From: an uncultured Planctomycetota bacterium
GTDB taxonomy: Bacteria; Planctomycetota; UBA1135; GCA-002686595
NCBI GenBank assembly: GCA_903928115.1
Contig: CAIYPP010000013.1
Location: forward strand, 1 to 64,000
Direction: 5' to 3'
DNA: 64,000 nucleotides
Every line of letters starts with the position of its first letter. Within the stretch, counting starts at the first letter, position 1. Position numbers and translations under genes: made by a program. Below, piece by piece: positions 3,730 through 18,707 of this stretch. The notes below the pieces were generated by a model, which had not been told where the DNA came from, ran no database searches, and worked only from the letters and a program-made list of their open reading frames with translations.

Positions 3730-6267
3730 TCAGGGGCCGACGACGAAGTGCAGCGCGTTCGAGAGGCTCGTTGTTCCCGGGCTCGACGGGTCGCGGTACC
3801 ACGCCTGCGACCAGATCGGCGTGCCGGGCGTGAAGGGCGTTCCGAGCGCAAAGGGCCGAGCCGCGCGGAAGGCGTTCCAGTCGAGCTGGTAGCTGCCGTC
3901 ACAGCCGCCCGGAGTACCGCCGGAGAGCTGGGACCCCGTGCGCTGAGTCGGCGACTTCACGCACAGGAAGCTCGAGCTGCCCGGAGCCCACACGGCCGAA
4001 TGCGGACCGTTGGTGCTGTAGAAGAAGAGCCCGAGGCGCTCCGCATCGACGCCGCTCGCCGTCAGCACGAAACCCGACGGCGCGCTGCCGCTCGGCGAAC
4101 CGGCGTACGAGAGCGTGGCGGAGCAGCCCGCGGCACTCGTGCCCGCCGTGCAGTAGATCGAGGGCGCCGTGCAGTCGACGTCGCGGATGCGGAAGTCGTC
4201 GATGGCCGCTTCGACGATCGAGCCCTGGCCGAGATCCGAGGCCTTGAAACGCAGCTGGATGCCGGGCCCCGGCGGGAAGAAGTCCGAGACACGGAACTCG
4301 TGGTAGTACCAGCCACCGCTCGCCTCGATGCCCGTGGGGCCGACGGTCTCGACCACCTGCCAGCCCGAGCCGTTCGTGATGTCGACGCGGAAGGTGTCGT
4401 CGACCACGCCCTGATTGTTCGAGTACCAGCGCCAGTAGCTCACGACCGGGTCCATCATGCCCGTGAGGTCGTAGACAGCGGTCTTCAGCGTCGTCGTGCC
4501 GCCATCGACATCGGCGGTGCCCACCGAGGCGTTCACGATCGCTTGCCCGGTAACCCAGCAGAAGGTGCCGTTCGGCGAGTGGTCGTCCTCGGGCTGCGCC
4601 GCGGTGCCGTTGGGATTGCAGCGGAACCACAGGCCCGACGTGGCGTTGTCACCCGTATCGCCCACCGACCAGCCGGCGATGTTCTCCATGTCGAGCAGCG
4701 CGGCGGTGCTCACGCCGTAGGCGACGAGGCTGCGCAAGGGCTGGCTCGCGCCCTCCGGCGGGTACTTCCACGAGACGCCGTTGGTCGAGTCTGCCGAGAT
4801 GTACCAGCTGACATCGCTGCCGCAGGGAAGCGCGGGGAACTGGACCGAGTAGTTGCCGTTCCCCTGCGCGACGAGCGGCACGCTCACGGTGCCCGCGCCC
4901 ACGTCGTAGTAGAGCCGCTCCGAGCCCGGCACGAGCAGCGAGCTCGGCGAGGCTTGGATCGTCGCGGCGAAGCTCTGGCCGCCGGGGTTGATGAGCGCGG
5001 GCACAGCTTGTGCGAGCGCCACGTCGACGAGCGGCTGCCCCACCCACCACACGAAGAACCCGCTCTCCAAGTCGCTCCCGATCACCACGCCGCTCTGGAA
5101 ATACGGGTAGACGCTCCACAGTCCGTTGAACTGCGCCCCATCGTCGAGCGGGAAGGTGTCGTAGAAAGCCACCTCGGTGCAGTTCAGCGGATCGGTGCGG
5201 TCGAACACACGCAGACCGCTGCGATAGTTCGCTTCGAAGATCCGGTTGCCCTTCACATAGAGGTTGTGCGTGATCGCCGCATTGCCGTTGGTGAAGCTGC
5301 CGAGCAGCGTCGCGTTGGCAGGATTCGAGATATTCACGACATACGTCGTCGACGGAACGTTCGGCTCGTCGAGTTCGTCGTCGATGTAGCAGTACTGGCG
5401 ATCCTCGGAGATCCAGCACTGGTGAGAGTACGCGCCGCCAGGCCAGTACACCTCGCGGAGCGTCGTGATCGAAGACTTGTTGGTCACATCCAGAATCGAG
5501 AGGCGGGTGGCGCCCGATCCGTTCCCGGTTCCCGCGCACGCGTACGCGATCTGACGACCTGCATACGGACCGCTCGTGTAGGTCACGATCTGCGCGTCGT
5601 GCACATACAGCGTGTTCCACTGACCAACGAACGGAGGGTTGGTGGGGTTCGCATTGAGGTTGTAGATGCGCAGCCCCACGTTGCTGCCTCCGCCGCAGCG
5701 ATAGAGAAAGCCGCTCTGGGTGTCGATCGCGACGTTGTGCGTGGTCGCGACTCCACCCGTCGAGATCGTGTTGGCGAGCGTGATCACTCCGCTGTCTGCA
5801 TTCGCCATGTTGTAGACCTGGATGCCCCCGCCGCCCTCGCTCACCACGTAGGCGTACGTGCCGAAGACCTTGACGTCACGCCACAGGCTCTGCGGACCCG
5901 CGCCGTTCAGCAGCACCACGGGATCGCTGGGATCGGTGATGTCGATGAACGCCGCGCCATGGCTGTGGCAGAAGATGGCGATCTCCCGGCCGCTCGGTGT
6001 GGTGTAGCCCCAACAATCGTTGCCACTGTTCGCGCCGAAGGTCGTCAGCGGGAGCTGCGAGAGGAGTGAGATGCCGTTCGAGGCCATCGCGCGCGGAGTG
6101 CCGCCGCTCGCCATCGGCTGACCGGGCTGCACGCGCGTGCGGACGGGACGACCGTGGTACGGCGGCCGCAGGCTCCACAGCTTCGGGTCGTCCTCGTGGA
6201 GCGCGACCGCAGCGGAGGCCAAGAGGAGCGAGGCGAAGGCAGCGTAGGTGGTCTGGACGATGCTCAT
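3730..6267 (-). CDS. Choice-of-anchor B family secreted protein (LVIVD-type beta-propeller)
   Basis: Encodes 845 aa. The ATG at 6267 begins a signal peptide (MSIVQTTYAAFASLLLASA); the open frame continues upstream but lacks coding character. The N-terminal half matches the choice-of-anchor B pattern: CWGYTTPSGREIAIFCHSHG, FIDITDPSDPVVL, SLWRDVKVFGTYAYVVSE and later LRVFDRTDPLNC, that is, propeller blades with repeated D-P turns. A middle beta-sandwich region follows. The last 130 residues form a Cys-containing domain starting YCTAGTSAAGCSATL and ending in WYRDPSSPGTTSLSNALHF, a type I recall from secreted proteins of the same clade. Export to the surface or medium is likely; the ligand is unknown. 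An intrinsic terminator follows the stop. Confidence 0.85.
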   Translation of the reverse strand: MSIVQTTYAAFASLLLASAAVALHEDDPKLWSLRPPYHGRPVRTRVQPGQPMASGGTPRAMASNGISLLSQLPLTTFGANSGNDCWGYTTPSGREIAIFCHSHGAAFIDITDPSDPVVLLNGAGPQSLWRDVKVFGTYAYVVSEGGGGIQVYNMANADSGVITLANTISTGGVATTHNVAIDTQSGFLYRCGGGSNVGLRIYNLNANPTNPPFVGQWNTLYVHDAQIVTYTSGPYAGRQIAYACAGTGNGSGATRLSILDVTNKSSITTLREVYWPGGAYSHQCWISEDRQYCYIDDELDEPNVPSTTYVVNISNPANATLLGSFTNGNAAITHNLYVKGNRIFEANYRSGLRVFDRTDPLNCTEVAFYDTFPLDDGAQFNGLWSVYPYFQSGVVIGSDLESGFFVWWVGQPLVDVALAQAVPALINPGGQSFAATIQASPSSLLVPGSERLYYDVGAGTVSVPLVAQGNGNYSVQFPALPCGSDVSWYISADSTNGVSWKYPPEGASQPLRSLVAYGVSTAALLDMENIAGWSVGDTGDNATSGLWFRCNPNGTAAQPEDDHSPNGTFCWVTGQAIVNASVGTADVDGGTTTLKTAVYDLTGMMDPVVSYWRWYSNNQGVVDDTFRVDITNGSGWQVVETVGPTGIEASGGWYYHEFRVSDFFPPGPGIQLRFKASDLGQGSIVEAAIDDFRIRDVDCTAPSIYCTAGTSAAGCSATLSYAGSPSGSAPSGFVLTASGVDAERLGLFFYSTNGPHSAVWAPGSSSFLCVKSPTQRTGSQLSGGTPGGCDGSYQLDWNAFRAARPFALGTPFTPGTPIWSQAWYRDPSSPGTTSLSNALHFVVGP

Positions 6268-6470: not shown

Positions 6471-8618
6471 ATGAAGTTCCGCCTGACCATCGCGCTCGCG
6501 ACCTCCGCCTTCCTCGCCTCCCAGTGCGCGACGCCGTCCACGCCCGCGGCCATCGAGCGCGGTCCGTGGAGCTCGCCGCAATACCCCGCGACGCGACGCG
6601 AGGCGCACGTCGACACGTACCACGGCGAGCAGGTCGCCGATCCGTACAAGTGGCTCGAGGATCCGGACTCGGCGGAATCGCGCGCGTGGATCGACGCGCA
6701 GAACGAGCTCGTGCGGGCGCACCTCGAACCGCTGCCGATGCGCGCGAAGATGCAAGCGCGGCTGCGCGAGCTTTGGAACTACGAGCGCTTCGGACTGCCG
6801 ACCGAGCGCGGCGGACGCTGGTTCAGCTCGCGCAACGACGGCCTGCAAAACCAGAGCGTGCTGTACGTGAGCGAAGCGCTCGACGGACGCGGCGAGCGCG
6901 TCCTGCTCGATCCGAACACGCTCTCGAAGGACGGCACCGTCGCGCTCAACGGCAGCGCGCTGTCCGACGACGGCCGCTACCTCGCCTACGGCGTATCGGA
7001 CGGCGGCTCGGACTGGACCGTTTGGCGCGTCCGCGACGTCGCGAACGGCGCGGACCTCGCGGACGAGCTGCGCTGGGTGAAGTTCAGCGGCGCGTCGTGG
7101 ACCAAGGACGGCAAGGGCTTCTTCTACTCGCGCTACGACGCACCGGCGCCGGGCGCGGAGCTCCAGGCGGTGAACCGCAACCAGAAGCTCTGGTTCCACG
7201 CGGTCGGAACGCCGCAGTCGCAAGACGTGCTCGTCTACGAGCGCCCCGACCACCCCGAGTGGAGTTTCGGTGGCACGGTGAGCGACGACGGGCGCTGGCT
7301 CGTCATCTCCGTCGGGGAAGGCACCGACCCGCGCAACCGCCTGTTCGTCGACGATCTCGTGCAGCCGGGCTGGAGCGTCGTCGAGCTCATCCCCGAGTTC
7401 GACGCGAGCTTCGATCTCGTCGACTCCGACGGCGAAGTCCTGTGGCTGATGACGGACTACCTCGCGCCGCGCGGGCGCGTCATCGCCGTCGACACGCGCA
7501 CCCCGGCGCGCGCAGCCTGGCGCGAGGTGATCGCGCAGCGCGAGGAAAAGCTCGAGGGCGTCGCGTTCGTCGGCGGCCAATTCCTCGCGCGCTACCTGAA
7601 GGACGCGCGCTCGCTCGTGACGGCGCACCGCAAGGACGGCTCGCTTCTGCGCGAGGTGAAGCTGCCTGGGCTCGGCACCGCGAGCGGCTTCGGCGGACGC
7701 GCGAGCGACACCCAGACCTTCTACTCGTTCGCGAGCTTCACCGCGCCCGGCGCGCTGTGGCGCTACGACCTTGCGACCGGAGAGAGCCAGCCCCACCGCA
7801 CGCCCAAGCTGACCTTCGACCCGTCGCTGTACGTCACCGAGCAGGTCTTCTACACGTCGAAGGACGGCACCCGCGTGCCGATGTTCGTCTCGCACCGCAA
7901 GGATCTCGTGCGCAACGGCTCGAATCCGACGCTGCTCTACGGCTATGGCGGTTTCAACGTCTCGCTCACGCCGAGCTTCTCACCCGCGCGACTCGCGTGG
8001 ATGGAGCAAGGCGGCGTGTACGCCGTGGCGAACCTGCGCGGCGGCGGCGAGTACGGCGTCGAGTGGCACAAGGCAGGCACCAAGCTGCGCAAGCAAAACG
8101 TCTTCGACGACTTCATCGCGGCGGCGGAGTACCTGATCTCGGAGCGCTTCACGCGCGCCGAGCGCCTTGCGATCAATGGCGGTTCCAACGGCGGCTTGCT
8201 GGTCGGAGCGGTGCTCAACCAGCGCCCGGAGCTCTTTGGCGCCGCGATCCCCGCCGTCGGTGTGATGGACATGCTGCGCTTCGAGAGCTGGACCATCGGT
8301 TGGGCGTGGGCGAGCGACTACGGCTCGGTGAAGAATGCCGATGAGTACCGCGCGCTGCGCGCGTACTCGCCGTACCACAACGCACGCGTCGGAGCTCGCT
8401 ATCCGGCCGTGATGGTCGTCACGGCGGACCACGATGACCGCGTCGTGCCCGCGCACAGCTTCAAGTATGCGGCGGCGATGCAGCACGCGCAGGCGGGCGA
8501 TGCGCCGATTCTGATCCGCATCGACGTGCGCGCGGGCCACGGCGCGGGCAAGCCCACGGGCAAGCAGATCGAGCAATCCGCCGACGAGCTCGCGTTCCTC
8601 GACCGCGCGCTCGACTGA
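6471..8618 (+). CDS. Prolyl oligopeptidase family serine peptidase (S9A), exported
   Basis: Encodes 715 aa, about the usual length of the S9A family. The protein begins with an export signal and a lipobox-like Cys (LASQC), so it may be a lipoprotein in the periplasm. The N-terminal marker DTYHGEQVADPYKWLED is typical of prolyl oligopeptidases, and a beta-propeller region follows. The catalytic hydrolase domain carries the nucleophile in NGGSNGG (Ser572), the acid in HDDRVVP (Asp655/656) and His690 in RAGHGAGK. It is expected to cleave short peptides after proline. The gene is divergent from the anchor-B gene. It ends 9 bases from the stop of the convergent 17-haem cytochrome gene, with no terminator visible between them. 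Confidence 0.95.
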   Translation: MKFRLTIALATSAFLASQCATPSTPAAIERGPWSSPQYPATRREAHVDTYHGEQVADPYKWLEDPDSAESRAWIDAQNELVRAHLEPLPMRAKMQARLRELWNYERFGLPTERGGRWFSSRNDGLQNQSVLYVSEALDGRGERVLLDPNTLSKDGTVALNGSALSDDGRYLAYGVSDGGSDWTVWRVRDVANGADLADELRWVKFSGASWTKDGKGFFYSRYDAPAPGAELQAVNRNQKLWFHAVGTPQSQDVLVYERPDHPEWSFGGTVSDDGRWLVISVGEGTDPRNRLFVDDLVQPGWSVVELIPEFDASFDLVDSDGEVLWLMTDYLAPRGRVIAVDTRTPARAAWREVIAQREEKLEGVAFVGGQFLARYLKDARSLVTAHRKDGSLLREVKLPGLGTASGFGGRASDTQTFYSFASFTAPGALWRYDLATGESQPHRTPKLTFDPSLYVTEQVFYTSKDGTRVPMFVSHRKDLVRNGSNPTLLYGYGGFNVSLTPSFSPARLAWMEQGGVYAVANLRGGGEYGVEWHKAGTKLRKQNVFDDFIAAAEYLISERFTRAERLAINGGSNGGLLVGAVLNQRPELFGAAIPAVGVMDMLRFESWTIGWAWASDYGSVKNADEYRALRAYSPYHNARVGARYPAVMVVTADHDDRVVPAHSFKYAAAMQHAQAGDAPILIRIDVRAGHGAGKPTGKQIEQSADELAFLDRALD

Positions 8619-8627
8619 GACTGAAAC

Positions 8628-10022
8628 TCATTCGTTGCCATTGGGGTGGCACTGGTAGCAGGTCTGCGGCCCGAACGTGTAGCCGCCGACGTCCTCGTGC
8701 TCGCCGTTCATCTCCGACTGCCGGTGCGCGTGGCAGTTGGTGCAGTTGAAGAAGGAGTAATTCGACGGCTGCGTGTGGCACGTCGCACAGGCGATGCCGG
8801 CGTGCCGCCCCGACTGGATCGGGAAGTCGGGGTGACTCCAGTTGTCCTGCGACCAGTTGCTCGTGCTTGTGTGGCACGACTCACAGCTCGTGCTGAAGCC
8901 CGCTTGCGCATGGTTGGGGTTCGTCGTCGCCTGATAGTCCGGCAGGTGGCACGAGCTGCAGCCGCTGGAGATGCCCGCGTGGTTGAAGTTGGCCACGCTC
9001 CAACTCGACGTACTGTGACACTGCTGGCACGAGAGCGGGAAGCCCGCCTGCGCGTGGTTGGGGCTCGTGGTCGCTTGGTAGTCGGACTGGTGGCAGGTCG
9101 CGCAGCTCGACGTGATGCCCGCGTGGGAGAAGTTCGCGCCGAGCCACGTGCTCGTCGAGTGGCACTGCGCACAGTTCGTCGGGAAGGTGTACGCGGCCGT
9201 GGTGTGATCGGGATCGGCGGCGGTGTCGTACTCCGCTTGGTGACAGTCAATGCACTGGCTCGAAGTGCCCGTGAAGACGTTGTTGGCATGGCACTCGGCG
9301 CAGCTCGCCGCGCGGTGCGCGCCCGAGAGCGGCCAGAAGCCGTGCGTGAAAGCGGCGCCATCCCACGCGACAGGCACGTGGCAGCGCTGACAGTCGCTGG
9401 TCCAGCCCTGAGCGGCATGATCGGGAGTCGTCGCGCGAGCGAGGTCCTGAGCGTGGCAGGATTCGCAGCTGGTGTCGGCGCGCGCGAAGTTGCCGGTCTG
9501 CGCGCCAGGGTGACATTGCCAGCACGCGGCGGCCGCGTGGGCGCCGACGAGCGGAAAGCGCGTCCGCGCGTGCGTCGCGATCAACTCGCCCGGCCGCCAC
9601 GTCGCCTGATCGTGGCAGCTCTCGCACGCGGGCCCCATTTGCGAGCGGTGCGGATCTTCGTGACAGCCACCGCAGCCGCGCGCGGCAAACATCTCCACCG
9701 GGCCGCGATCGTTGTGGCAGCGCAAGCACTCCGCCGCGCGGTGCGCGCCTTCGAGCGCGACCCCCGTCTCCTTCTCGTGTTCGAAAACGAAGTCGGCGCG
9801 GATCCGATCCCAACCCTGCCCCTCGTGGCACAGCGAGCAGTCGGCGGGAAACTTCTCGTGCGGGATGACCGGCCCACGCTCGTCCCACCACCCCTGCACC
9901 GGAGTCCCGTCGCGCACCGCCGTCGCGCAGGCGACCGTGAGGGCGACGAGCAGCGCGAAGCCAAGCGAGCCGCGGAAGATCCAAGCGCCCAGCCGCGCCC
10001 CAGCATGCGAATCGTGGCCCAT
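8628..10022 (-). CDS. 17-haem c-type cytochrome, putative lipoprotein
   Basis: Encodes 464 aa. Seventeen CxxCH haem-binding motifs can be counted, beginning CSLCH, CLRCH, CGGCH and ending CATCH, CTNCH, CYQCH, with many extra His for distal ligation. The N-terminus has one hydrophobic segment and a possible lipobox (LTVAC). The C-terminal half contains near-identical 48-residue modules (SPNHAQAGF with SWSVANFNHAGI). This is the last gene of a four-gene operon; its ATG is 2 bases after the stop of the beta-barrel gene. By analogy with porin-cytochrome conduits it is the best candidate for the outer-surface haem protein. That placement is inference; a periplasmic role is also possible. Confidence 0.9.
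   Translation of the reverse strand: MGHDSHAGARLGAWIFRGSLGFALLVALTVACATAVRDGTPVQGWWDERGPVIPHEKFPADCSLCHEGQGWDRIRADFVFEHEKETGVALEGAHRAAECLRCHNDRGPVEMFAARGCGGCHEDPHRSQMGPACESCHDQATWRPGELIATHARTRFPLVGAHAAAACWQCHPGAQTGNFARADTSCESCHAQDLARATTPDHAAQGWTSDCQRCHVPVAWDGAAFTHGFWPLSGAHRAASCAECHANNVFTGTSSQCIDCHQAEYDTAADPDHTTAAYTFPTNCAQCHSTSTWLGANFSHAGITSSCATCHQSDYQATTSPNHAQAGFPLSCQQCHSTSSWSVANFNHAGISSGCSSCHLPDYQATTNPNHAQAGFSTSCESCHTSTSNWSQDNWSHPDFPIQSGRHAGIACATCHTQPSNYSFFNCTNCHAHRQSEMNGEHEDVGGYTFGPQTCYQCHPNGNE
8900..9180 (-). repeat. Tandem 144-base coding repeat inside the 17-haem cytochrome
   Basis: The segments around 8902 and 9046 repeat with a 144-base (48-codon) period and are very similar in DNA. 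Each unit contributes CxxCH motifs within the pattern HAGIxSxCxxCHxxDYQATTxPNHAQAGF. This points to recent internal duplication extending the haem chain. A third, degraded unit lies further upstream in the gene. Confidence 0.75.
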
Positions 10023-10024
10023 CC

Positions 10025-11641
10025 CTAGAACCTCCTCTGCAGCCAGACGCCCGCGCTCGTGGCGTCCTGCTCGTCACCGAAATAGAAGTCTGCGCGCAGC
10101 GCACACGACCAATCCGCGCCCAGCGCGAAGTCCCAGTTCGTGCGCAGGTTGTGCTGGCTCAAGGTGGCGAAGTCACCGCCGGCGTTGTCCGGCTCATGTT
10201 GCGCGAACTCATAGGCGAGCGAGAGCGTGCCGGCGTCCGTCCAGCGGCTCGCGCCCAAGCGCAGTCCGGCGACGGAGTCGCTCGCGCCGTCGAGCGCGAA
10301 CAGCGAACTCCACACCTCTCCCTGCTCCCACAGCCAGTCGCGCTTGGAGAGCCGCAGCTCCCAACCCAACCCGCTGTCGTCTTGGTCGCTCCACAGATCC
10401 GTGCGGGCCGACAAGCGCGTCCCCTTGGTCAGCTCGCGCCAACCGGAGAAGTTCACGCGCTGCACCTCCCCTTCCGAGAGCGTCGTCGCCGTCGCCGGAG
10501 GCAGGTCGTCGCGCAGCATCCACGGCCAGCGAACCTGCGAGAACGCCGCAGCGAGTCCCCAAGCGCCAGAGACCTGATAGCGACCATTCAAGTGCAGCTC
10601 GGTGAGCTCGAATCCCTCCTGCTTGCCGCTGTCGTCGGCCGTGTACCAATCCACCCACGCCGAGCCCGCGAGCCACAACCGCTCGCTCGCGCGCCACGCA
10701 AAATCGGCGAGCGCGGTGTCGCGGTCCTCATCGCCCTCGTGCCACGTCTTCTGCAGCGCCGCGCCGAGCGAGAGCTCCCCGTCCGTGCCGCCCACGTGTC
10801 GATAGAACACGCTCGTCTGCACGTCGTCGCCCGTGTCGAGACTGGCATTCCACGCGGGCAAGAGTCCCGCGCTCACGCCCCAGCGATCGCCCCCAGAGGT
10901 GCGCTGCACGTACTCCGCGCCGTCGATCACCCCAAGCTGCGGCAGCTCCGAGTGAAGGAAGCGGCCGAGCTCGATACGGCGCGGATTTTCGCGCCAATCG
11001 CCGAGACGCCACGAGGCGCGGTCGACGCGCAGGCGATCGAGCGTCTCCGTCCCGTCGTCGGTGTCGCTCGAGCGATGAAAGAACTCACCATCGAAGCGCA
11101 CGACGTCCCCGCGACCCGTCGCATTCTCCCATTCGCCGTCGAAGCCCGTTCGCGCGAGCAGGTACTCACGACTGCCGCCGCTCGAGTCGAAGGTGCCATC
11201 GATGCCCGTGTACCACCGACCACGGAAGCGCGACTCCCGCTCGGCGGGTGTCGGAGCCTTGGTCGGTGCGAGCAACGGCGCCGCTGGGTCCCACGCTTCC
11301 TTGGGGTGCGTCCACGCGGGCGCAATGGGCGCGCCCAGCCGTTCCGCCGGAAGCAAGACCTCTGCCTGCTCGCCGACACCGACGAGCGCATCGGGCGAGA
11401 GCGCCTCGCAGCGAGCGCTTTGGCGCGAAACGCTGCGCACGATGAACTCGACGGTCTGCCCAGCGGCCGCGAAGACGCGACCGCGGTCGCCGGGCTCGAT
11501 GTGCACGTCGGAGCCTTGGTCGATGTAGAAGGCCGTGCCTGAGAGCGCAGTGACACGAACCTCGATGCGCCGGCCAGCAGGCTCCTGAGCCGCAGCGAGC
11601 GCACACAGCGTCGGGATGAAAGCGACGTGCAGGAGCCTCAT
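10025..11641 (-). CDS. Outer-membrane beta-barrel protein of the cytochrome operon
   Basis: Encodes 538 aa from the ATG at 11641, which overlaps the stop of the 26-haem gene (ATGA). A signal peptide (MRLLHVAFIPTLCALAAA) is followed by a small domain of about 100 residues (VTALSGTAFYIDQGSDVHIEPGD) that resembles SH3-like modules seen before barrels. The rest is a long series of alternating amphipathic strands rich in Trp, Tyr and Asp turns. It ends in WLQRRF, the terminal-Phe signature of outer-membrane barrels. It lacks an N-terminal CxxC, so it is not an obvious MtrB. Lying between two multihaem cytochrome genes, it probably forms the porin sheath of an electron conduit. That role is inferred from context. 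Confidence 0.8.
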   Translation of the reverse strand: MRLLHVAFIPTLCALAAAQEPAGRRIEVRVTALSGTAFYIDQGSDVHIEPGDRGRVFAAAGQTVEFIVRSVSRQSARCEALSPDALVGVGEQAEVLLPAERLGAPIAPAWTHPKEAWDPAAPLLAPTKAPTPAERESRFRGRWYTGIDGTFDSSGGSREYLLARTGFDGEWENATGRGDVVRFDGEFFHRSSDTDDGTETLDRLRVDRASWRLGDWRENPRRIELGRFLHSELPQLGVIDGAEYVQRTSGGDRWGVSAGLLPAWNASLDTGDDVQTSVFYRHVGGTDGELSLGAALQKTWHEGDEDRDTALADFAWRASERLWLAGSAWVDWYTADDSGKQEGFELTELHLNGRYQVSGAWGLAAAFSQVRWPWMLRDDLPPATATTLSEGEVQRVNFSGWRELTKGTRLSARTDLWSDQDDSGLGWELRLSKRDWLWEQGEVWSSLFALDGASDSVAGLRLGASRWTDAGTLSLAYEFAQHEPDNAGGDFATLSQHNLRTNWDFALGADWSCALRADFYFGDEQDATSAGVWLQRRF

Positions 11642-13977
11642 TGTTTGCCCCTCTCGAAGCCGTGGCATTCGACGCAGGTCCTCCCGAGGGGACGGTAGCG
11701 TACGGCCGTACCGCCGGACGCGAGCGACGACGGCTTGTGGCAAGCGATACACGCGAGCTTGGCGTGATTCGCGTCGAGTGCAAAGCGCGAGTCGCGCGCA
11801 TGATCGAACGAAAGCGCTGTCCATGACTCGGCCGAGGCGTGGCAGGCCGTGCAGTCCCGCTCAGCGAACTGCCCCACGTGCGGGTCCGTGTGACAATCCG
11901 AGCAGCGCTGGCCGCTGGCGCGCCCGAAGCGGCGCCCGCGCGCATCCGGCGTGGCCCGCGGCACGTGGCAGGCCTCGCACGCCGCGCGCGCGTGAGCTCC
12001 GTCGAGCGAGAATCCGGTGGCCGCTCCATGCTCGAACGAATCCCGCGCGTGCGACGTGAACGACTGAGTCCCGTGACAACGAGCACAACCGGACTTGCCG
12101 TCGATCACCGACAGAAGCGCATCGAAATGCCCCTCGTGCGCGTCGGAGTGGCAGCCCGTGCAGGCCTGTGCCAGCGGCCCCGTGGCGAGCATCGTCACCG
12201 CGCGCAGCCGACGCGTGGAAACGACGCGGCGGTCATCACCCGGAAGCTCGAATGCAACCTTGTGGCACGCGTCGCAGTCCGTGCTCGTGTGTGCGCCATC
12301 GAGCGGGAAGCCCGTCCAAGCGCCATGGTCGAAGGCTCGCGAGAGTTCGCGGAAGCTCTCGACCCCGTGACAACGATCGCAGGTGTCGTGATTGGGATCG
12401 AGTGCGGCCAGTGCAGCACCATCGAAGGCTCCAGCATGCGCGTCTGCGTGGCACGTCGCGCACGCATCGACGGGAGCCCCAAAGACGTGCGCTACGCGAC
12501 CGAAGCGGCGGCCGAGCGCATCGGGCTGCGGGCTGCGCACATGGCAACGCTCGCAATCCGCGCGGAGGTGGGCGCCCGCGAGCTCGAAGCCGGTGCGCTG
12601 CGCGTGCACCTCTGCGTTGAATCCGCGTTCCGCCGCGAAGTCGGTGCTCTCATGACAGGTCGCGCAGTCGCGCGCTGTGCCTGCAACCGCCGAGTAGAAC
12701 GCATCCCCGTGCACGTCCGCGTGACACTGTGCGCACTCGCGAGCCGTGCCGCGGAACCGGCGCGGCGCATCGCCGACGCGCTCGTGACACGCATCGCAGC
12801 GCACCTTCGCGTGGGAGCCATCGAGCGGAAACGCCGTCGACGCGTGACGCGCAAGGTCGAATCCATGCGCCGAGAAAGTCTGGGATCCATGACACTCGAC
12901 GCACGCCTGCGGCGTGCCGCCCGCCGTCACAAACTGACCGCCATGGGGATCTGAGTGGCACGCGGCGCAGTCCTGCGCCTTGCGGCCGGGATAGCGCTCC
13001 GAGAACGCGCGATCCGTCCCGTACCCGGCGTGACACTGTTCGCAGTGCACAGCAGCGTGCGGCTTGTCGAGGGCAAACCCCGAGGCGGCGTGGAGCTCCC
13101 GACGCAACGCTCCCTCCGGAACCCGAAAGCTCGCCCGATCGAGCGGGTGACACTCGATACAACCTGCTTGGGGCTGCAAGGACACGAGCGCGCTCACGGC
13201 CGTCGCAAAGCTCTCCGAGTGCGGCGACGCGTGGCAGTCCTGACACCGACGTGCCTCCGGACGAGGTCCGCGTCCACCGACGGACTCGACGGAGTGCTCC
13301 GTTCCCTTCGCATGGCACTCGCTGCAGGCGTGTCCCGAATGGACTCCGCGGAGCGGGAACGACTCGGTGTGCACGAACCCATCGAGCGCTTGGAACGGCT
13401 TCTCCTGTCCGTGGCATTCCGCGCACGACTGGGCAAAGCGCCCCTCGTGCGGGTCCTCGTGGCACGAATCGCAACGTTGCGAGAGCCCGAGGAAGCGTGC
13501 CGCACCGTTGGGCAGCACCTCGACGTCCGCGTTGCGGTGGCAGGCGCTGCAGTCGAGCTTGGCGTGGGCGCCGACGAGCTCGAACTTCACGAAATCGTGC
13601 CGAAAGGCCGCGCGATCCTCCACGCCGGCGAGAGCGAACACCCGCGCATCGACGGGCGCGAGCGCGGCTCCGTGGTGCTCGACGTGGCACCTTCCGCAGC
13701 GACTCGCGGCTCCCGGCTCCATCGCGCCGTGGAAGCCCGCGCGCGACACGAGTTGCTCGCGGATCGGCTCGTGGCACTCGCCACAAGCCTGCGACAGCTC
13801 GGCTGGAGAGTCCCCGTGGCAGCGCTCGCAGCTCCCTCTCTCGGAGAGTTCCGGCACCGCGGCATGCACGGCCGTGAGCGGCCCCGGCGACACCTCCTCG
13901 GACTCGTGGAACACGATGGCGAGCACCAAGAGCAGCGATAGGAGCGCGAGCGCCGTCTTCGGCTGCAGCCACTTCAT
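11638..13977 (-). CDS. 26-haem c-type cytochrome, membrane-anchored
   Basis: Encodes 779 aa from the ATG at 13977, which overlaps the upstream stop by 4 bases. The N-terminus is a single membrane anchor or signal (MKWLQPKTALALLSLLLVL). Twenty-six CxxCH motifs follow, from CERCH and CGECH through CIACH and CVECH. They are arranged in repeated modules of the form FxLxGAHxxxxCxACH with a second CxxCH and CHxDxH about 30-60 residues later. This resembles the doubled-CxxCH and cytochrome c7-like wire families. It is expected to sit in the periplasm and take electrons from the membrane oxidoreductase encoded directly upstream. The haem count is read from sequence; the wire function is inference. 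Confidence 0.92.
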   Translation of the reverse strand: MKWLQPKTALALLSLLLVLAIVFHESEEVSPGPLTAVHAAVPELSERGSCERCHGDSPAELSQACGECHEPIREQLVSRAGFHGAMEPGAASRCGRCHVEHHGAALAPVDARVFALAGVEDRAAFRHDFVKFELVGAHAKLDCSACHRNADVEVLPNGAARFLGLSQRCDSCHEDPHEGRFAQSCAECHGQEKPFQALDGFVHTESFPLRGVHSGHACSECHAKGTEHSVESVGGRGPRPEARRCQDCHASPHSESFATAVSALVSLQPQAGCIECHPLDRASFRVPEGALRRELHAASGFALDKPHAAVHCEQCHAGYGTDRAFSERYPGRKAQDCAACHSDPHGGQFVTAGGTPQACVECHGSQTFSAHGFDLARHASTAFPLDGSHAKVRCDACHERVGDAPRRFRGTARECAQCHADVHGDAFYSAVAGTARDCATCHESTDFAAERGFNAEVHAQRTGFELAGAHLRADCERCHVRSPQPDALGRRFGRVAHVFGAPVDACATCHADAHAGAFDGAALAALDPNHDTCDRCHGVESFRELSRAFDHGAWTGFPLDGAHTSTDCDACHKVAFELPGDDRRVVSTRRLRAVTMLATGPLAQACTGCHSDAHEGHFDALLSVIDGKSGCARCHGTQSFTSHARDSFEHGAATGFSLDGAHARAACEACHVPRATPDARGRRFGRASGQRCSDCHTDPHVGQFAERDCTACHASAESWTALSFDHARDSRFALDANHAKLACIACHKPSSLASGGTAVRYRPLGRTCVECHGFERGKQ

Positions 13978-16196
13978 GGCATCCACTCCCCAAGCGATGC
14001 GTAGCGGAGCGCAGCGACAATGTGAAGGACGACGATGAGCACCATGTAGAGCGCGACCCAGCGGTGAAGGTAGCGCCATGAGCCCATCAATGCGCGCAGG
14101 TCCTCGAAGTGCGCCGCAGCGAGCGCGGCGCGGTGGGCCTTGCGTGCGAGCTGGAGCGTCTCGTGCAGTTGCACCTGCGGGATCCCCTCGTCACGTCCGG
14201 TCGCGGCAAGCTCCGCCAGCGCCCGACGCAGATCGCGCTGGCTCGTGAACAGGGCCCGAAGACGCTGACCCAACGAACCCCGCCAGTGACCGGCGAGCAC
14301 CAGTGCCTGAACGCGCTGGCGCACGCGCTCACCAAAGGCGCGGTTCTCCTTGTCCCACTCCCCCGAGAGTTGTGCGAGCCGCGCCTGCACTTCCTCCAAC
14401 TCGAGTTCTCGGCCGTTCGCGGCGCGCGGAACGAAGGCATAGAAATAGCGACCGATCGCACCGGTGACGACCAAGACCGCGAGCGCCGCGAGCGCGTGCC
14501 CGCCGACCGTCGCGCGAGGAGCCATGCCGGCGTGGACGAGCGCGAACAGCAGCGCGAGCACCCCGGTTACGACGTGCGAAGTCATCCAGCGTTGCAGGCT
14601 GAAGAAGCGCACCGCGAGGTACTCGCCGCGCCGCAGCAGGTACGCGAGGTTGACGAGAATGAGCGCGGTCGCCGCGACGCCGCACAGGAGCCCGAGTCCT
14701 GCCGCCGGGCGCAGCCATTCATGACCCGGCGCCAGCGAACGCTCGTGCAGCGGAAGCCCGTAGTAGCCGCGCTCCCACAGCACCCACGCGAGCACCGCGA
14801 GCGCGCAGCCGAGCGCGACGAGCAGCGCCCGCGCCAGTCCGCTCCCGCTCTCGGCAAGCGGCTCGAGCTTGGGGCGCAAGGAAGGATCGAAGGACACGCC
14901 CGACTGCTCCAAGAGCTCGAAGGGAGGCTTGCCCCCCGCCAGCACGAAGACCTCGTCGTTCTCCAGCGTCACGCGGCGCTCGCCGTTCGAGCTGCGCACG
15001 CGCAAGTGCACCTCGCGTTCCTCGATCGATTCCACGTCGCTGTCGAGCAGCACATCCAGCCGACCATCCGCCTGCGCCTGCACGAGCTGCGCCTCGTTGC
15101 GCGGCTTGATCCTCGAGAACGCTGAGCGGCGATACGACAGCGTGACGTGGTTGCCCTGCTGCTCCGAGAGACCGATCGCGGCCTCGACCGCGCTATCGCC
15201 GCCGCCGACGACGAGGATGCGACGCTCGCGATACGAGTGCGCGTCGAGGAGCGCGTACGCGACCTTGGAGCGCTCCTCGCCCGGCACTCCGAGCCGGTTG
15301 GGCGTTCCGCGCCGGCCGAGCGCGAGACACACATGCTGTGCGCGAACCGAGCCCTGCGCCGTTCGCACGGTGAACGTCCCGTCGAGCTCGCGCCGCACGC
15401 CCTCGAACACCTGACCCGTGCGGATCGGCAGCTCCATCGCCTGTGCGATGTGCTGCCAGAGTTCGATGAGCTCTTCCTTCGTGTAGATCTCGCGATCGAG
15501 CGTCCCGAAGCCCGGCAGCTCGACAGGTTGCGTCATCACGAGCTTGCGGCGCGGGTACTTTGCGACGGTGCCGCCGAGTTCCTCTTGCTCGAGCACGAGA
15601 AAGTCGAGTCCCGCGAGCCGCGCCTGCAGCGCGCACGCGAGCCCCGCAGGTCCGGCGCCGACCACGACCAACTCCCGAACGTCGGCGCTCCGCGCCGGAA
15701 GTGCGCGCGCTCGGCGCGCCACCTCAGTCCCAACCGCGGTGCCGTGCGAGATCGCGGTGCGCACGAGCGCGTAGCCCGTGACCTCCCCTGCAAGGAACAG
15801 CCCTGGCTGCGTCGCGCTCTCCAGCGTCTCGGTGAGCGCCGGGATGTCACGGCGCTCCTTCAGGTCCCCGAGGGTGAGCGCGATCGCGCCGACGGGGCAT
15901 TCCACAGCGCAGCGTCCGTGGCCCACGCAGCGCGCGCCGTGGACGACGAGTGCCTGACCGTGAACGATCTCGAGCACTCCCTCCTCGGGGCACGCATCGA
16001 CGCAGACTCCGCAGCCAATGCAGCGCGTCAGATCGACGTGGGGATACTGAAGGCGCGCCTTGTCGCTGCCGCGCACGCGCGCAAGTCCGCGCTCATCGAC
16101 CGCGCGGGCCATCGACGCGAGCTCGCGGCGGCGAGACACGACGGCCAGCGCCAGCACGACCACGACCGCGAACAACAAGACCCAGCTCACGCGCAC
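13974..16196 (-). CDS. Membrane oxidoreductase: 2x[4Fe-4S]-FAD/NAD(P)-dihaem b fusion
   Basis: Encodes about 740 aa. In order it has an N-terminal membrane helix (5-21) and a two-cluster ferredoxin domain (C59, C62, C65, C69 and C90, H93, C96, C100). A thioredoxin-reductase-like FAD/NAD(P) domain follows, with GAGPAGL at 180-186 and GGGDSAVEAA at 331-340. The C-terminal membrane region has helices near 455-475, 497-520, 540-560, 565-585 and 710-730. Two helices carry His pairs exactly 14 positions apart (H541/H555 and H711/H725), the spacing of dihaem ligands in NOX/ferric-reductase-like proteins. It likely passes electrons from NAD(P)H or ferredoxin through two b haems to the cytochromes encoded downstream. 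The start is GTG 16196 or, in frame, GTG 16190; a TAGCTT box just upstream would make the latter nearly leaderless. Confidence 0.88.
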   Translation of the reverse strand: MRVSWVLLFAVVVVLALAVVSRRRELASMARAVDERGLARVRGSDKARLQYPHVDLTRCIGCGVCVDACPEEGVLEIVHGQALVVHGARCVGHGRCAVECPVGAIALTLGDLKERRDIPALTETLESATQPGLFLAGEVTGYALVRTAISHGTAVGTEVARRARALPARSADVRELVVVGAGPAGLACALQARLAGLDFLVLEQEELGGTVAKYPRRKLVMTQPVELPGFGTLDREIYTKEELIELWQHIAQAMELPIRTGQVFEGVRRELDGTFTVRTAQGSVRAQHVCLALGRRGTPNRLGVPGEERSKVAYALLDAHSYRERRILVVGGGDSAVEAAIGLSEQQGNHVTLSYRRSAFSRIKPRNEAQLVQAQADGRLDVLLDSDVESIEEREVHLRVRSSNGERRVTLENDEVFVLAGGKPPFELLEQSGVSFDPSLRPKLEPLAESGSGLARALLVALGCALAVLAWVLWERGYYGLPLHERSLAPGHEWLRPAAGLGLLCGVAATALILVNLAYLLRRGEYLAVRFFSLQRWMTSHVVTGVLALLFALVHAGMAPRATVGGHALAALAVLVVTGAIGRYFYAFVPRAANGRELELEEVQARLAQLSGEWDKENRAFGERVRQRVQALVLAGHWRGSLGQRLRALFTSQRDLRRALAELAATGRDEGIPQVQLHETLQLARKAHRAALAAAHFEDLRALMGSWRYLHRWVALYMVLIVVLHIVAALRYASLGEWMP

Positions 16197-16202
16197 AAGC
16201 TA
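16197..16202 (-). promoter_or_regulatory. Putative -10 box (TAGCTT) of the electron-conduit operon
   Basis: On the minus strand TAGCTT lies 6 bases before GTG 16190, the usual -10 to +1 distance. Transcription could therefore start at or next to that codon. No clear -35 element was found, so this is tentative. Confidence 0.4.
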
Positions 16203-16311
16203 GCGAACGCGTGCGACGGAATCCCGTCCTCTCCGCGCGCGGCGCAGCCCTCTCTCCTCCGCGCGTAGTTTCGTCTTCGACGTCGCCGAGACTGAAGCGA
16301 CCACTCGCCGC

Positions 16312-17397
16312 TCAGCAGAGGCGACGAACGAGGCTCCACCAAGCTCGCAGCGCGCCATCGAGCGCTCCCAACAAGGTCTTCCGGAGCGACGATCCGCCGA
16401 GCTGGGGCGCCACCGTGAGCGGCCCGCCGACCAAGAGATCACGATCCCGTCGAGAGCGCGCGCGCTGAGCCTTCTCACGCTCGCGGAAGATGTTCCGCAT
16501 CCAGCGCGCGAGCGCGAACTTTCCCTCGCAGTATCCGCCGAACGTGCCCGAGGCGAGCGTGAACGCCACCCAGACGACTTCGTAGGCGAGCAATGCGGGC
16601 GCCGTCAGCACGAGCGTGCGCCACTGGTGGTTCTTGAGCAGGTGGATCCAGCGGTTGCGCGAGTGCAGGAACGCGCGGCGCTTGGGGTAGTCGATCGCGC
16701 CACGGTAGCTGATCCCCTGCGTACCCCCGCGGTGGCGGCACAGCGCATCCTCCACGGACAGGATCGCGTGTCCCGCCATGCGCAGACGCATCGAGAGGTC
16801 GAGGTCCTCGAACAGCACGAAGTAAGCCGGATCGAAGCCGCCGAGCTCGCGGAGCACCGAGCGACGGACGAGCAACGCCACGGCGATTGCGCCGTCGACC
16901 TCAACGGTGCCCGCACCCTGAGCGCGCGCGAGCGGCACGAAGAAGTTCCGCAAGCTGAAGAGCCCGCAGTAGTGCAGCGCCCCGCCGTCGTAGTGCACGG
17001 TCGCAGGATCCGCATCCACGACGCTGCGCGGCTGCACCACGACGGCGTCGGCTCGAGCGAGCGCCGCCCGCTCGAGTTTTTCGACCGCATCCGGCGCGAG
17101 CACCGCATCATTGTCGACGAGGAGGACCCACTCGTCTTCGACGAGCTCGAGACCGCGATTGCGCGCCGGGCACGGGCCTTCGTTCGTCGCGAGAGCTTCG
17201 ACTCGTACGTCGGGCTGCTCGCGCGCGAGCCACTCACGACTGCCGTCCTCCGAGGCGTTGTCGACGACGAGGATTTCTGCGAGTGGACGCGTCTGCGCGC
17301 GCAGCGCCGCCAAGCACGGCGGTAGGTGCTCACGCCCGTTGTAGTTGCAGACAACCGCGCGGATCGGCCCCAGCGATGTGCGCGTCGTCGCGGTCAT
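16312..17397 (-). CDS. Family 2 glycosyltransferase
   Basis: Encodes 361 aa. The GT-A fold signatures of GT2 enzymes are visible: VVCNYNGREHLPPCLAALRAQ at the N-terminus, ILVVDNASEDGS for nucleotide-sugar binding, LLVDNDAVL as the DxD-like metal motif, and GGFDPAYFVLFEDLDLSMRLRMAG, typical of rhamnosyltransferase-like GT2 proteins. A C-terminal region near residues 265-290 may contact the membrane (LVLTAPALLAYEVVWVAFTL). The ATG overlaps the stop of the upstream glycosyltransferase by 4 bases, so the two probably act in the same polysaccharide or glycolipid pathway. The acceptor is unknown. Confidence 0.92.
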   Translation of the reverse strand: MTATTRTSLGPIRAVVCNYNGREHLPPCLAALRAQTRPLAEILVVDNASEDGSREWLAREQPDVRVEALATNEGPCPARNRGLELVEDEWVLLVDNDAVLAPDAVEKLERAALARADAVVVQPRSVVDADPATVHYDGGALHYCGLFSLRNFFVPLARAQGAGTVEVDGAIAVALLVRRSVLRELGGFDPAYFVLFEDLDLSMRLRMAGHAILSVEDALCRHRGGTQGISYRGAIDYPKRRAFLHSRNRWIHLLKNHQWRTLVLTAPALLAYEVVWVAFTLASGTFGGYCEGKFALARWMRNIFREREKAQRARSRRDRDLLVGGPLTVAPQLGGSSLRKTLLGALDGALRAWWSLVRRLC

Positions 17398-18707
17398 TTC
17401 AGCGGCAGCTCGAAGTCCGCCGCGCGGCAGGGTGCGCGGTGCTTCCAGCAGTAGGGAAGGTTCGCCAAGACGCTCGCGCTAGCCTTCGCGAGCACCCAGA
17501 CAGCGCCCGGCGTCTGCCGCACCGACTTGCCGATGCCGATCGTGCCCGTCGCGTCGCTGACCTCGCCCGTGCGCTCGCGCCGCTCGCCGCGCAAAAGCAC
17601 CTTCGTGAACACGAGCCAAGGCAGCCGGAGAAGCTCCCCGAGCGGCGCATACTTGAGCTGCGTCAGCCACGCATTGCGTGCATGGTAGTACAGCGAACGC
17701 TTGCCCATCTTGATGCCGAAGGGCGTCTTGTGGAACGCGCGCGCCGACGGGAACTGCAGCACGCGGAAACCGAGGTTGAGCAGGCGACAGGTCAAGTCGC
17801 GCTCATTGCCGTAGATGAAGAGGCGCTCGTCGTAGTAACCGGCGCGCCGGATCGCTTCCGAGCGCGCGAGGCTCGCGCAGCCGCGGAAGGTCGACATGTA
17901 GCGCTCGCGCCGCAGGTGGTCCTGCTCGAGGTAGCCCGCGGGCATGCCCGGCTCCTCGACTTCACTCGACACGATCGCGGTCGTCGCCGGCTCGCGCTCG
18001 AGACGCGCGGCGGTCTTCTCCAGCCAGTCCGCGGGCAGCACGACGTCGTCGTCGAGGATCGCCGTCAGCTCGGTCACAGCGGAGGCGAAGCCGATGTTGA
18101 ACGTCTCGCAGGCGCCGTAGGCCGAGTGCGGCATGACGACCAGCCGGACTTCGGGGTAGCGCTCGCGGATCGTGCGCGCCGTGGCGTCGTTCGAGCCGTT
18201 GTCGACCACCACGATGTCGGTGAACGGGCGCAGCTGCGCGCGCAGCGCGTCGAGGTTCGCGCACACGTCCGACGCCTTGTTCCAAGTCGAGATCACGGCC
18301 GTCGCCGCGAGCGGCGCTCCGTGCGGGAGCACGCCGAGCGCACCGCGCGAGCGCGCGTACGCCGCAGGCCCGTCGAGTTCCGCGAGCGGTTGCGCCCCGT
18401 GGGCAACGATGACCTGCACCCCCGGGCGCCACGCGAGTGCGGCGGCGCACGCGACGGCGACCACCCGCTCATCGCCCGCGGTCGAAGCGACGTCCGGCAC
18501 GATGACGCGGCACGGCGCGAGACGGTCGAGGGCGGCCGCGATGCGCGCGACGACGTCGAAGCGACTCCCGAGGCCCTGCTCGCCGAGCACGAGCTCCTCG
18601 ACGGGCCCCTGCGCAAGCCGCGCTGCGAGCGCAGCATGCGTCCCCGCCTGCGCACTGATGCACAGCGTGGCTCGGGACTCGGCGGCGATCGTGGGAGTTG
18701 CTTGCAC
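17394..18707 (-). CDS. Family 2 glycosyltransferase with N-terminal extension
   Basis: Encodes 437 aa from GTG 18707 (V-Q-A-T-P-T-I). A longer TTG start at 18779 is possible, but that stretch has poor third-position GC and contains a TAGGAT box on the minus strand. Residues 1-130 form an unassigned alpha/beta region (IVPDVAS, then ACAAALAWRPGVQVIVAHG) that may be a degenerate nucleotide-sugar domain. The GT2 domain follows, with AVISTWNKASDVCANLDAL, DIVVVDNGSNDATARTI, LTAILDDDVVLP and a FIYGNERDLTCRLLNLG motif. It overlaps the next glycosyltransferase gene (ATGA). The likely role is surface glycan synthesis. Confidence 0.88.
   Translation of the reverse strand: MQATPTIAAESRATLCISAQAGTHAALAARLAQGPVEELVLGEQGLGSRFDVVARIAAALDRLAPCRVIVPDVASTAGDERVVAVACAAALAWRPGVQVIVAHGAQPLAELDGPAAYARSRGALGVLPHGAPLAATAVISTWNKASDVCANLDALRAQLRPFTDIVVVDNGSNDATARTIRERYPEVRLVVMPHSAYGACETFNIGFASAVTELTAILDDDVVLPADWLEKTAARLEREPATTAIVSSEVEEPGMPAGYLEQDHLRRERYMSTFRGCASLARSEAIRRAGYYDERLFIYGNERDLTCRLLNLGFRVLQFPSARAFHKTPFGIKMGKRSLYYHARNAWLTQLKYAPLGELLRLPWLVFTKVLLRGERRERTGEVSDATGTIGIGKSVRQTPGAVWVLAKASASVLANLPYCWKHRAPCRAADFELPLK

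Follow-up and report, generated by a model that had tools for sequence, protein, structure and literature searches.

A four-gene planctomycete operon for a candidate trans-envelope electron conduit with its own predicted NAD(P)H input

The window analyzed here, a stretch of 64,000 nucleotides from an uncultured planctomycete, contains a four-gene operon whose position (8628-16196) and orientation (minus strand) were confirmed. In 5'->3' direction of this strand, it encodes a membrane oxidoreductase (OR, 740 aa, 13974..16196), a multihaem cytochrome (cyt1, 779 aa, 11638..13977), an outer-membrane barrel protein (538 aa, 10025..11641) and a second multihaem cytochrome (cyt2, 464 aa, 8628..10022). 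The OR/cyt1 and cyt1/barrel junctions are ATGA overlaps, while barrel and cyt2 genes are separated by a 2-bp gap (TAG-GG-ATG). CxxCH motifs occur 26 times in cyt1 and 17 times in cyt2, such that both the haem counts and the junctions given in an earlier note on this DNA were reproduced exactly. Chance occurrence of the motifs was ruled out by protein shuffles, which yielded maxima of 3 and 2 for cyt1 and cyt2, respectively. An assembly artefact or contaminant was likewise ruled out, since the operon is also present in the congeners G001 and G002, where the upstream genes too agree in size and order. In the window, the genes upstream of OR (17397-16312 and 18779-17394) encode glycosyltransferases and lie outside the operon unit. 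The source genome also codes for a cytochrome c assembly protein.

OR, identified by profile matches and by homologues in relatives, probably starts at GTG 16190, because related sequences align from residue 3. It consists of an N-terminal transmembrane helix, two Fe-S sites, an FAD/NAD(P) domain and a C-terminal predicted haem-b membrane domain, in this order. The Fe-S domain (15876..16043, minus strand as for all features), which is matched by Fer4-type 4Fe-4S profiles, features a four-cysteine site (C59-x2-C62-x2-C65-x3-C69) and a three-cysteine site (C90-x5-C96-x3-C100) in which position 93 is histidine in 29 of 37 sequences; all seven cysteines are invariant across these 37. A profile search returned no Rieske match in OR. 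The two-dinucleotide-binding FAD/NAD(P) domain (14877..15683; Pyr_redox_3, E 4.2e-50) resembles that of thioredoxin reductase and YpdA (E 1.6e-23 against TrxR/YpdA structures) and contains invariant GGGDSAxE and SYR motifs. It differs from thioredoxin reductase in that the redox-active CxxC disulphide is absent, the only conserved cysteines being C188 and C290. Scores against TIGR04018 (160.1 vs. 339.9) and TIGR01292 (86.7 vs. 343.5) stayed below the curated cut-offs.

The C-terminal membrane domain (OR-C, 13974..14834), to which we assign two predicted b haems on the basis of hydropathy and histidine conservation, exhibits hydropathy peaks at residues 463, 512, 551, 573 and 723. The predicted haem ligands reside on two helices, H541-x13-H555 (14532..14576) and H711-x13-H725 (14022..14066), and all four are invariant (37/37). 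As far as can be judged from sequence, this arrangement is that of a transmembrane path over two b haems; H492 and H567 are also conserved. OR-C fits no curated family at cut-off. The Ferric_reduct profile scored 24.0 against a gathering score of 28 bits, with matches at E <=0.01 in four of seven relatives, and weak similarity was seen to DUF4405 (below curated cut-off) and to Ni_hydr_CYTB. Comparison of the OR-C model (pLDDT 69) with solved structures was uninformative. Input alignments for the structure models comprised 6-7 rows. A missing MtrB or haem-b enzyme in the fold-search listings carries no weight either way. With Pfam scores below cut-off and an uninformative fold search, the predicted haem b rests on histidine conservation. 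Of the cofactors proposed in the earlier note, Fe-S clusters and FAD/NAD(P) are backed by profiles and haem b by the invariant histidine pairs, while no database match to a haem-b protein was obtained at cut-off.

Cyt1 carries a hydrophobic N-terminal segment (13912..13956) followed by a conserved SPGPLxxxHA motif, as judged from its sequence and the N-termini of more than 60 orthologues. No signal-peptidase I site is evident, and cyt1 is probably anchored in the inner membrane via this segment. Its haems are spaced with a period of three, well beyond shuffled sequences, and form eight three-haem modules of 75-99 aa each (11752..13830) followed by a C-terminal two-haem cap (11641..11751). Among 67 cyt1 proteins, haem numbers of 17, 20, 23, 26 and 29 are the only ones that occur. 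Among solved structures, the cyt1 profile comes closest to the 12-haem wire GSU1996 (3ov0, E 3e-6), which like GSU2210 of Geobacter is a chain of three-haem c7-like domains (PMC10138318); cyt1 differs from GSU1996 in being longer, probably N-terminally anchored, capped by a two-haem unit and co-encoded with a conduit. Weak matches to DmsE-type decahaem proteins were found repeatedly, but the score against TIGR03508 (MtrA/DmsE decahaem; 63.9 bits) was below the cut-off of 192.2. Cyt2 is a predicted outer-membrane lipoprotein: its N-terminus is lipobox-like, as in 46 of 61 orthologues, with a putative lipidated Cys32 (LTVAC, 9927..9929), and it looks like a lipoprotein on these grounds.

For the barrel protein, AlphaFold2 predicts a small N-terminal beta domain (11336..11572) of lower confidence (pLDDT about 54-71) and a barrel of 22 beta strands (10028..11230), with a mean pLDDT of 73 from a six-sequence alignment. 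The model matched PirA (VIA Z 16.4) and FimD (15.8), and its width appears comparable to that of TonB-dependent receptors and pilus ushers. The earlier note had made its proposal dependent on a pore able to host a cytochrome, and the model indeed shows a wide barrel like those that are plugged or serve as ushers. By sequence, the protein matched neither Pfam nor NCBIfam nor any PDB entry, and Pfam porin families gave no match for six barrel members up to E 1. Two features of porin-cytochrome conduits were found, namely a barrel gene co-encoded with multihaem cytochromes and a large barrel in the model.

Of 61 relatives at order level, 40 have both a full-length OR and the barrel and 19 have neither, while one genome each contained OR only or barrel only; the count took full-length OR matches only. 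Partner genes were adjacent, or the contig was too short to tell, at 76 of 77 inspected OR loci, and at one locus (L151 of G013) OR occurs without any partner nearby. The order OR-cyt1-barrel-cyt2 is kept in most loci fetched, and 100 of 202 gene junctions are overlaps of 1-4 bp, a further 73 being gaps of 0-60 bp. Genes were called with a simple codon-usage script and missed genes checked by tblastn. No accessory subunit or further gene family was found consistently beside the operon, whose neighbors were annotated in part. The arrangement is thus strongly conserved and the genes co-occur in relatives, as the earlier note had required, and its proposal that a cytoplasmic electron input is co-encoded with the conduit gains strong support from synteny, presence/absence and the OR cofactor motifs.

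OR is carried by 33 of 294 sampled Planctomycetota and by 28 of 296 genomes of an Ignavibacteria-containing phylum. In distant members, it is split into an Fe-S/FAD protein (OR-N) and a haem-b protein (OR-C) encoded in the same cluster, and clusters with this split version plus the cyt1, cyt2 and barrel genes were seen both in such Planctomycetota and in an Ignavibacteria MAG, the other phylum being represented by Ignavibacteria-type Bacteroidota. The OR tree places operon types A and B on two sides of one branch with 100/100 support, with one label change as compared to 15.7 for shuffled labels. Going by these sequence relationships, the system is a family with two paralogous types and a split version in another phylum, rather than a peculiarity of a single planctomycete.

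Outer-membrane barrels co-encoded with periplasmic (in Mtr also surface) multihaem cytochromes are equally found in MtrCAB, MtoAB and PioAB. These systems, however, use two decahaem cytochromes instead of 26- and 17-haem proteins, MtrB has 26 strands (PMC7198977) as opposed to 22 and is unrelated by sequence to the barrel described here, and the planctomycete operon in addition encodes a predicted input enzyme of the NAD(P)H type. The earlier note's view that the input is normally encoded elsewhere holds only in part. Several bacteria, among them Rhodoferax, Sideroxydans and Dechloromonas, have the quinol dehydrogenase genes cymA/mtrH/mtoC within their mtrAB/mtoAB clusters (PMC6295460). The conserved Geobacter cluster extHIJKLMNOPQS combines porin, multihaem cytochromes, cytochrome b and an Fe-S (Rieske) protein (PMC5877670). 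Inner-membrane electron input beside conduit genes is therefore already known, while we found no description of an enzyme of the NAD(P)H/FAD/Fe-S/haem-b kind in such a position. OR differs from CymA, MtrH and MtoC by its predicted cytoplasm-facing FAD, NAD(P) and Fe-S sites, and the ext Fe-S/cytochrome b pair is Rieske/complex-III-like and lacks an NAD(P)/FAD protein; the ExtP profile matched OR-C with E 0.3 at best. In the openly accessible journal papers covered, we found no earlier description of a four-gene NAD(P)H-fed conduit.

Very large cytochromes, one of them with 26 haems, with or without a barrel, are encoded by OetABI of syntrophic sulfate reducers (PMC10553843) and by 16+26-haem operons (PMC5539420), but no NAD(P)H enzyme is reported for them, and the 26-haem protein of sulfate reducers is accompanied by a propeller protein and a PPIase. 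Porin and multihaem cytochrome genes also occur together elsewhere in the PVC superphylum, in Verrucomicrobia, where the sections of the report considered here describe an 8-haem periplasmic cytochrome and do not mention an inner-membrane NAD(P)H enzyme (PMC5615132). NADPH oxidases (NOX), ferric reductases and STEAP pass electrons from NADPH via FAD and b haem(s) across one membrane, as predicted for OR, and share with it the His-x13-His pairs on two helices. NOX and ferric reductases, however, possess a C-terminal FNR-type FAD/NADPH domain instead of an N-terminal YpdA/TrxR-like dehydrogenase with Fe-S sites, and the acceptor of OR, unlike theirs and that of STEAP, appears to be a multihaem cytochrome. 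A dedicated NADH dehydrogenase is encoded with extracellular electron-transfer genes in the FLEET locus of Listeria and lactic acid bacteria (PMC8837199), a Gram-positive system that is based on quinone and flavin and contains neither multihaem cytochromes nor a barrel.

We consider it likely that the operon encodes a full trans-envelope electron conduit that brings its own NAD(P)H input. The genes present, their conservation and co-occurrence, the sequence motifs, the modular build of cyt1 and the barrel model were observed; how the proteins are oriented, whether they form a complex, what donates and accepts the electrons, which way these flow and whether quinone is bypassed we infer as follows. 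OR would be an inner-membrane protein whose Fe-S/FAD/NAD(P) part faces the cytoplasm, because an Arg-rich segment follows the first transmembrane helix. Electrons would come from NAD(P)H (probably NADPH), with ferredoxin as a possible additional donor via the Fe-S sites. Two b haems on the His-x13-His helices would pass electrons to the periplasmic face, from where cyt1, tethered by its N-terminal helix, may carry them across the periplasm to the 22-strand barrel. Cyt2, as a surface lipoprotein of variable length, could then deliver them to an extracellular acceptor, candidates being a metal oxide, a humic quinone, a partner cell or an electrode. Outward flow is more likely, because the external couples to be expected are less reducing than NAD(P)H and because the inside-negative potential favors exit along a path without obvious proton coupling. 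We only tentatively extend this to a quinone-independent single-operon wire from NADPH/ferredoxin to the surface, in which a lone cyt1 spans the periplasm and docks in the barrel, its length being set in three-haem steps by periplasm width. The conduit need not be the main respiration, because the genome also carries haem-copper oxidase genes.

A conduit linked to quinones is conceivable but rather doubtful. The haem-b domain would trade electrons with menaquinone and OR would act as a branch point or as an NAD(P)H:quinone:cytochrome enzyme, in line with known conduits that are quinol-fed via CymA, CbcL/MtrH or ImcH, some of them encoded beside conduit genes (PMC6295460). H492 and H567 could belong to another site, and the weak similarities of OR-C to DUF4405 and Ni_hydr_CYTB point in the same direction. 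Nevertheless, no recognizable quinone-site motif was found in OR, and the FAD/NAD(P) and haem-b domains form one protein or, when split, are encoded in the same cluster, which suggests that cytoplasmic electrons are the main input. Import of electrons from external Fe(II), Mn(II) or a partner cell for NAD(P)H formation appears improbable: such donors would have to reduce NAD(P) uphill and against the membrane potential, by bioenergetic reasoning, along a path without evident proton coupling, and no accessory subunit is consistently part of the operon. On the other hand, MtoAB/PioAB-type conduits have been linked to Fe(II) oxidation (PMC6344600), and relatives stem from lakes including Pavin and Erken.

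Somewhat less improbable, though still unlikely, is a non-respiratory function as surface reductase for iron acquisition or metal/metalloid detoxification, or as an electron store. A capacitor role has been proposed for three-haem wires of the GSU1996 type (PMC10138318), and the porin of the ext cluster influences selenite and tellurite reduction (PMC5877670), but 43 haems would be expensive for assimilation and the partly annotated neighborhood lacks a consistent additional gene family. We regard it as very unlikely that no electrons cross the outer membrane, with the barrel being a transporter of unrelated function and the cytochromes working for a reductase in the periplasm. While the barrel has no sequence relation to known conduit porins, barrel and cytochrome genes are adjacent and co-occur across two phyla, 22 strands are elsewhere a size enclosing folded plugs, and cyt2 is of the lipoprotein type.

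Known Gram-negative conduits are fed by the quinol pool and depend on separate carriers in the periplasm for the next step. If the operon functions in the way suggested here, reducing power from NAD(P)H or ferredoxin could be dumped outside the cell, bypassing the quinone pool, and planctomycetes could balance redox using metals, humics or partner cells as sinks. About one tenth of the sampled Planctomycetota and about one tenth of the sampled Ignavibacteria-containing phylum would become new candidates for extracellular electron transfer, with OR as a diagnostic gene for locating them, and the three-haem step in cyt1 haem counts would offer a testable idea on the required length of a biological wire.

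All four genes that the earlier note had assigned to a trans-envelope electron wire are present in the window gene calls as described, on the minus strand. They encode a 740-aa membrane oxidoreductase (OR, 16196-13974), a cytochrome with 26 CxxCH motifs (cyt1, 13977-11638), a predicted outer-membrane protein of 538 aa (barrel, 11641-10025) and a second cytochrome with 17 CxxCH motifs (cyt2, 10022-8628). The claimed junctions are right, the OR/cyt1 and cyt1/barrel borders being ATGA overlaps and the barrel/cyt2 gap amounting to 2 bp, and both motif counts are exact; 2000 shuffles each of cyt1 and cyt2 yielded at most 3 and 2 CxxCH motifs, respectively. The contig comprises 101.8 kb and is part of a 4.3-Mb planctomycete MAG (87.8% complete, 5.0% contaminated). 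Also in the window, a gene for a secreted choice-of-anchor B/LVIVD-repeat protein (3730-6267) sits just past a converging gene of the prolyl-oligopeptidase family (6471-8618).

OR consists of a transmembrane helix, arginines, Fe-S motifs, an FAD/NAD(P) domain and a membrane domain, in this order. Among 37 aligned full-length homologs C59, C62, C65, C69, C90, C96 and C100 are invariant. The second Fe-S site (residues 90-100, window ~15897-15929) thus offers only three cysteines, all of them invariant, while the position of the fourth ligand is occupied by His in 29 of the 37 sequences and otherwise by Val, Thr, Ile or Ala; the cluster could be either 4Fe-4S with a His ligand or 3Fe-4S. The FAD/NAD(P) domain (Pyr_redox_3, E 4.2e-50) matches thioredoxin reductase/YpdA structures (E 1.6e-23), but contains no CxxC disulphide. 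GGGDSAxE and SYR are invariant, with R or K following SYR in 33 of 37, a pattern resembling the NADPH loop of thioredoxin reductases. In the membrane domain, which remains below the Pfam cut-off for Ferric_reduct (24.0 vs. 28) and is weakly modeled (pLDDT 69), H541-x13-H555 and H711-x13-H725 are invariant and coincide with maxima of hydrophobicity at 551 and 723. If TM1 runs out-to-in, both His helices would point the same way and, therefore, H541/H711 and H555/H725 could hold one b haem each, one near either membrane face. Such topology and haem binding, predicted from sequence, would correspond to the His pairing across two helices in NOX and ferric reductases.

The hydrophobic N-terminus of cyt1 lacks a clear signal-peptidase I site and is followed by a conserved motif, which reads SPGPLxxxHA in Planctomycetota and SPGDLxxxHA in a phylum that includes an Ignavibacteria MAG. 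Haem spacing has a period of three (mean intervals 24.4, 36.9 and 23.0 residues; between-phase sum 57,886 vs. a shuffle maximum of 989), and the window protein consists of eight three-haem modules and a two-haem cap. Across the family haem number rises by threes (e.g., window 11641-13830), with only 17, 20, 23, 26 and 29 occurring, each 2 modulo 3 (67/67 proteins counted). The nearest solved relative of the cyt1 profile is the 12-haem wire GSU1996 (3ov0, E 3e-6), which is built from four three-haem domains (PMC10138318). By arithmetic from the spacing in MtrA, 10 haems across 80 Å (PMC7198977), a straight chain of 26 haems would extend over ~220 Å, about the scale of a Gram-negative periplasm. 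In cyt2 haem number varies far more, from 7 to 37 (coefficient of variation 0.29 for counts above 7 only vs. 0.08 for cyt1). Its counts are 1 modulo 3 in 47/61 proteins, the rest being exceptions, and 46/61 possess a lipobox-like N-terminus.

The window barrel found no match in Pfam or NCBIfam searches. Its AlphaFold2 model, based on six sequences, has 22 strands in addition to a small beta domain (mean pLDDT 73) and aligns best with PirA among TonB-dependent receptors (Z 16.4, 355 residues, rmsd 4.7) and, among ushers, with FimD (Z 15.8, 346 residues, rmsd 5.5). Barrels of these two kinds surround a plug or let folded subunits through, and because they are the best structural matches, a pore wide enough for a cytochrome, the lack of which the earlier note had named as a refutation, appears plausible on the model.

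Co-occurrence in relatives, suggested earlier as a check, is borne out: among 61 order-level relatives, OR and barrel are found together in 40 and both are missing in 19, with OR alone in one (G013) and barrel alone in one (G047), when OR presence is defined by full-length hits and six genomes with partial OR only (E 1e-43 to 1e-54) are scored as lacking it. At 59 loci with a called OR, cyt1, barrel and cyt2 were all gene-called; at the others, partners were recovered by tblastn or contigs ended shortly, except for a lone OR (L151, G013:C26, 8786-11050) with neither cytochromes nor barrel within about 9 kb, which could have another partner or reflect decay. Neighboring genes overlap by 1-4 bp at half of 202 junctions. 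The operon is real, conserved and more widespread than could be known from the window, OR occurring in 33/294 sampled Planctomycetota (E<=1e-100) and its N-terminal half in 28/296 genomes of the Ignavibacteria MAG's phylum (E<=1e-80), where a barrel-like gene or a (truncated) 18-haem cytochrome adjoins in about half of the 4-kb loci around the hits. In distant Planctomycetota and in the latter phylum OR is split into separate Fe-S/FAD (~435 aa) and haem-b (~290 aa) proteins, in clusters that keep cyt1, cyt2 and barrel in sometimes altered order. That the halves are fused here and encoded by neighboring genes elsewhere argues strongly for a joint function.

Two operon types can be distinguished, both present in several genomes. 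Type A, including the window, mostly has 23-26 haems in cyt1 and 10-37 in cyt2, while type B has 23 and 7, respectively, plus a separate ~910-aa protein with 10-11 haems. The gene for the latter comes after the 7-haem cyt2 (L130, L142, L205 and others), and homologs also adjoin some split-OR clusters (L197, L200). In a tree of 56 OR sequences a single branch with 100/100 support parts A from B (one label change vs. 15.7 with shuffled labels), so OR seems to be inherited jointly with the downstream cytochromes.

Conduit clusters containing an inner-membrane quinol enzyme are already known (PMC6295460), the Geobacter ext cluster pairs a Rieske protein with a cytochrome b (PMC5877670) and the Gram-positive FLEET locus encodes its own NADH dehydrogenase (PMC8837199). 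Porin-cytochrome genes have been reported for Planctomycetota via models of known systems (PMC10732223) and for Ignavibacteria from known porin families (PMC7399161), and novel 8-haem porin clusters are known from Verrucomicrobia (PMC5615132). In the literature searched, no conduit operon was described as including an NAD(P)H/FAD/Fe-S/haem-b enzyme, an absence that is weak evidence of novelty. Judged by its parts, the operon represents a porin-cytochrome variant whose input module could be matched to no described conduit.

The window's genome contains further redox genes. A cluster on contig C93 (L258:4718-12081, minus strand) encodes a Rieske protein with a DAHP-synthase ferredoxin-like domain, a cytochrome b (PF00033, E 9e-35), a small protein and cytochromes with 9, 17 (NapC/NirT N-terminus) and 13 haems, and resembles a cytochrome bc/Geobacter ext-like complex. 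Two places on contig C138 (L259:6598-10500, 15849-18199) feature a 1300-aa protein that combines 10 CxxCH motifs with EF-hand and LVIVD repeats, as well as a porin-like gene adjoining that for a 13-haem cytochrome, possibly a further porin-cytochrome pair.

The operon's products most likely provide a route from NAD(P)H or ferredoxin to the cell surface. Electrons would enter the FAD/Fe-S centers of OR, pass via its two b haems to cyt1 and via haems enclosed in the barrel to cyt2, and finally reach an extracellular acceptor. A quinone site in OR is possible; a direct wire would need none. On bioenergetic grounds, outward flow is favored by the strongly reducing donor and by the inside-negative potential, which assists an electron-only exit path. 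Since the genome encodes haem-copper oxidases as well as a cytochrome c assembly protein, the conduit may serve as a facultative electron sink.
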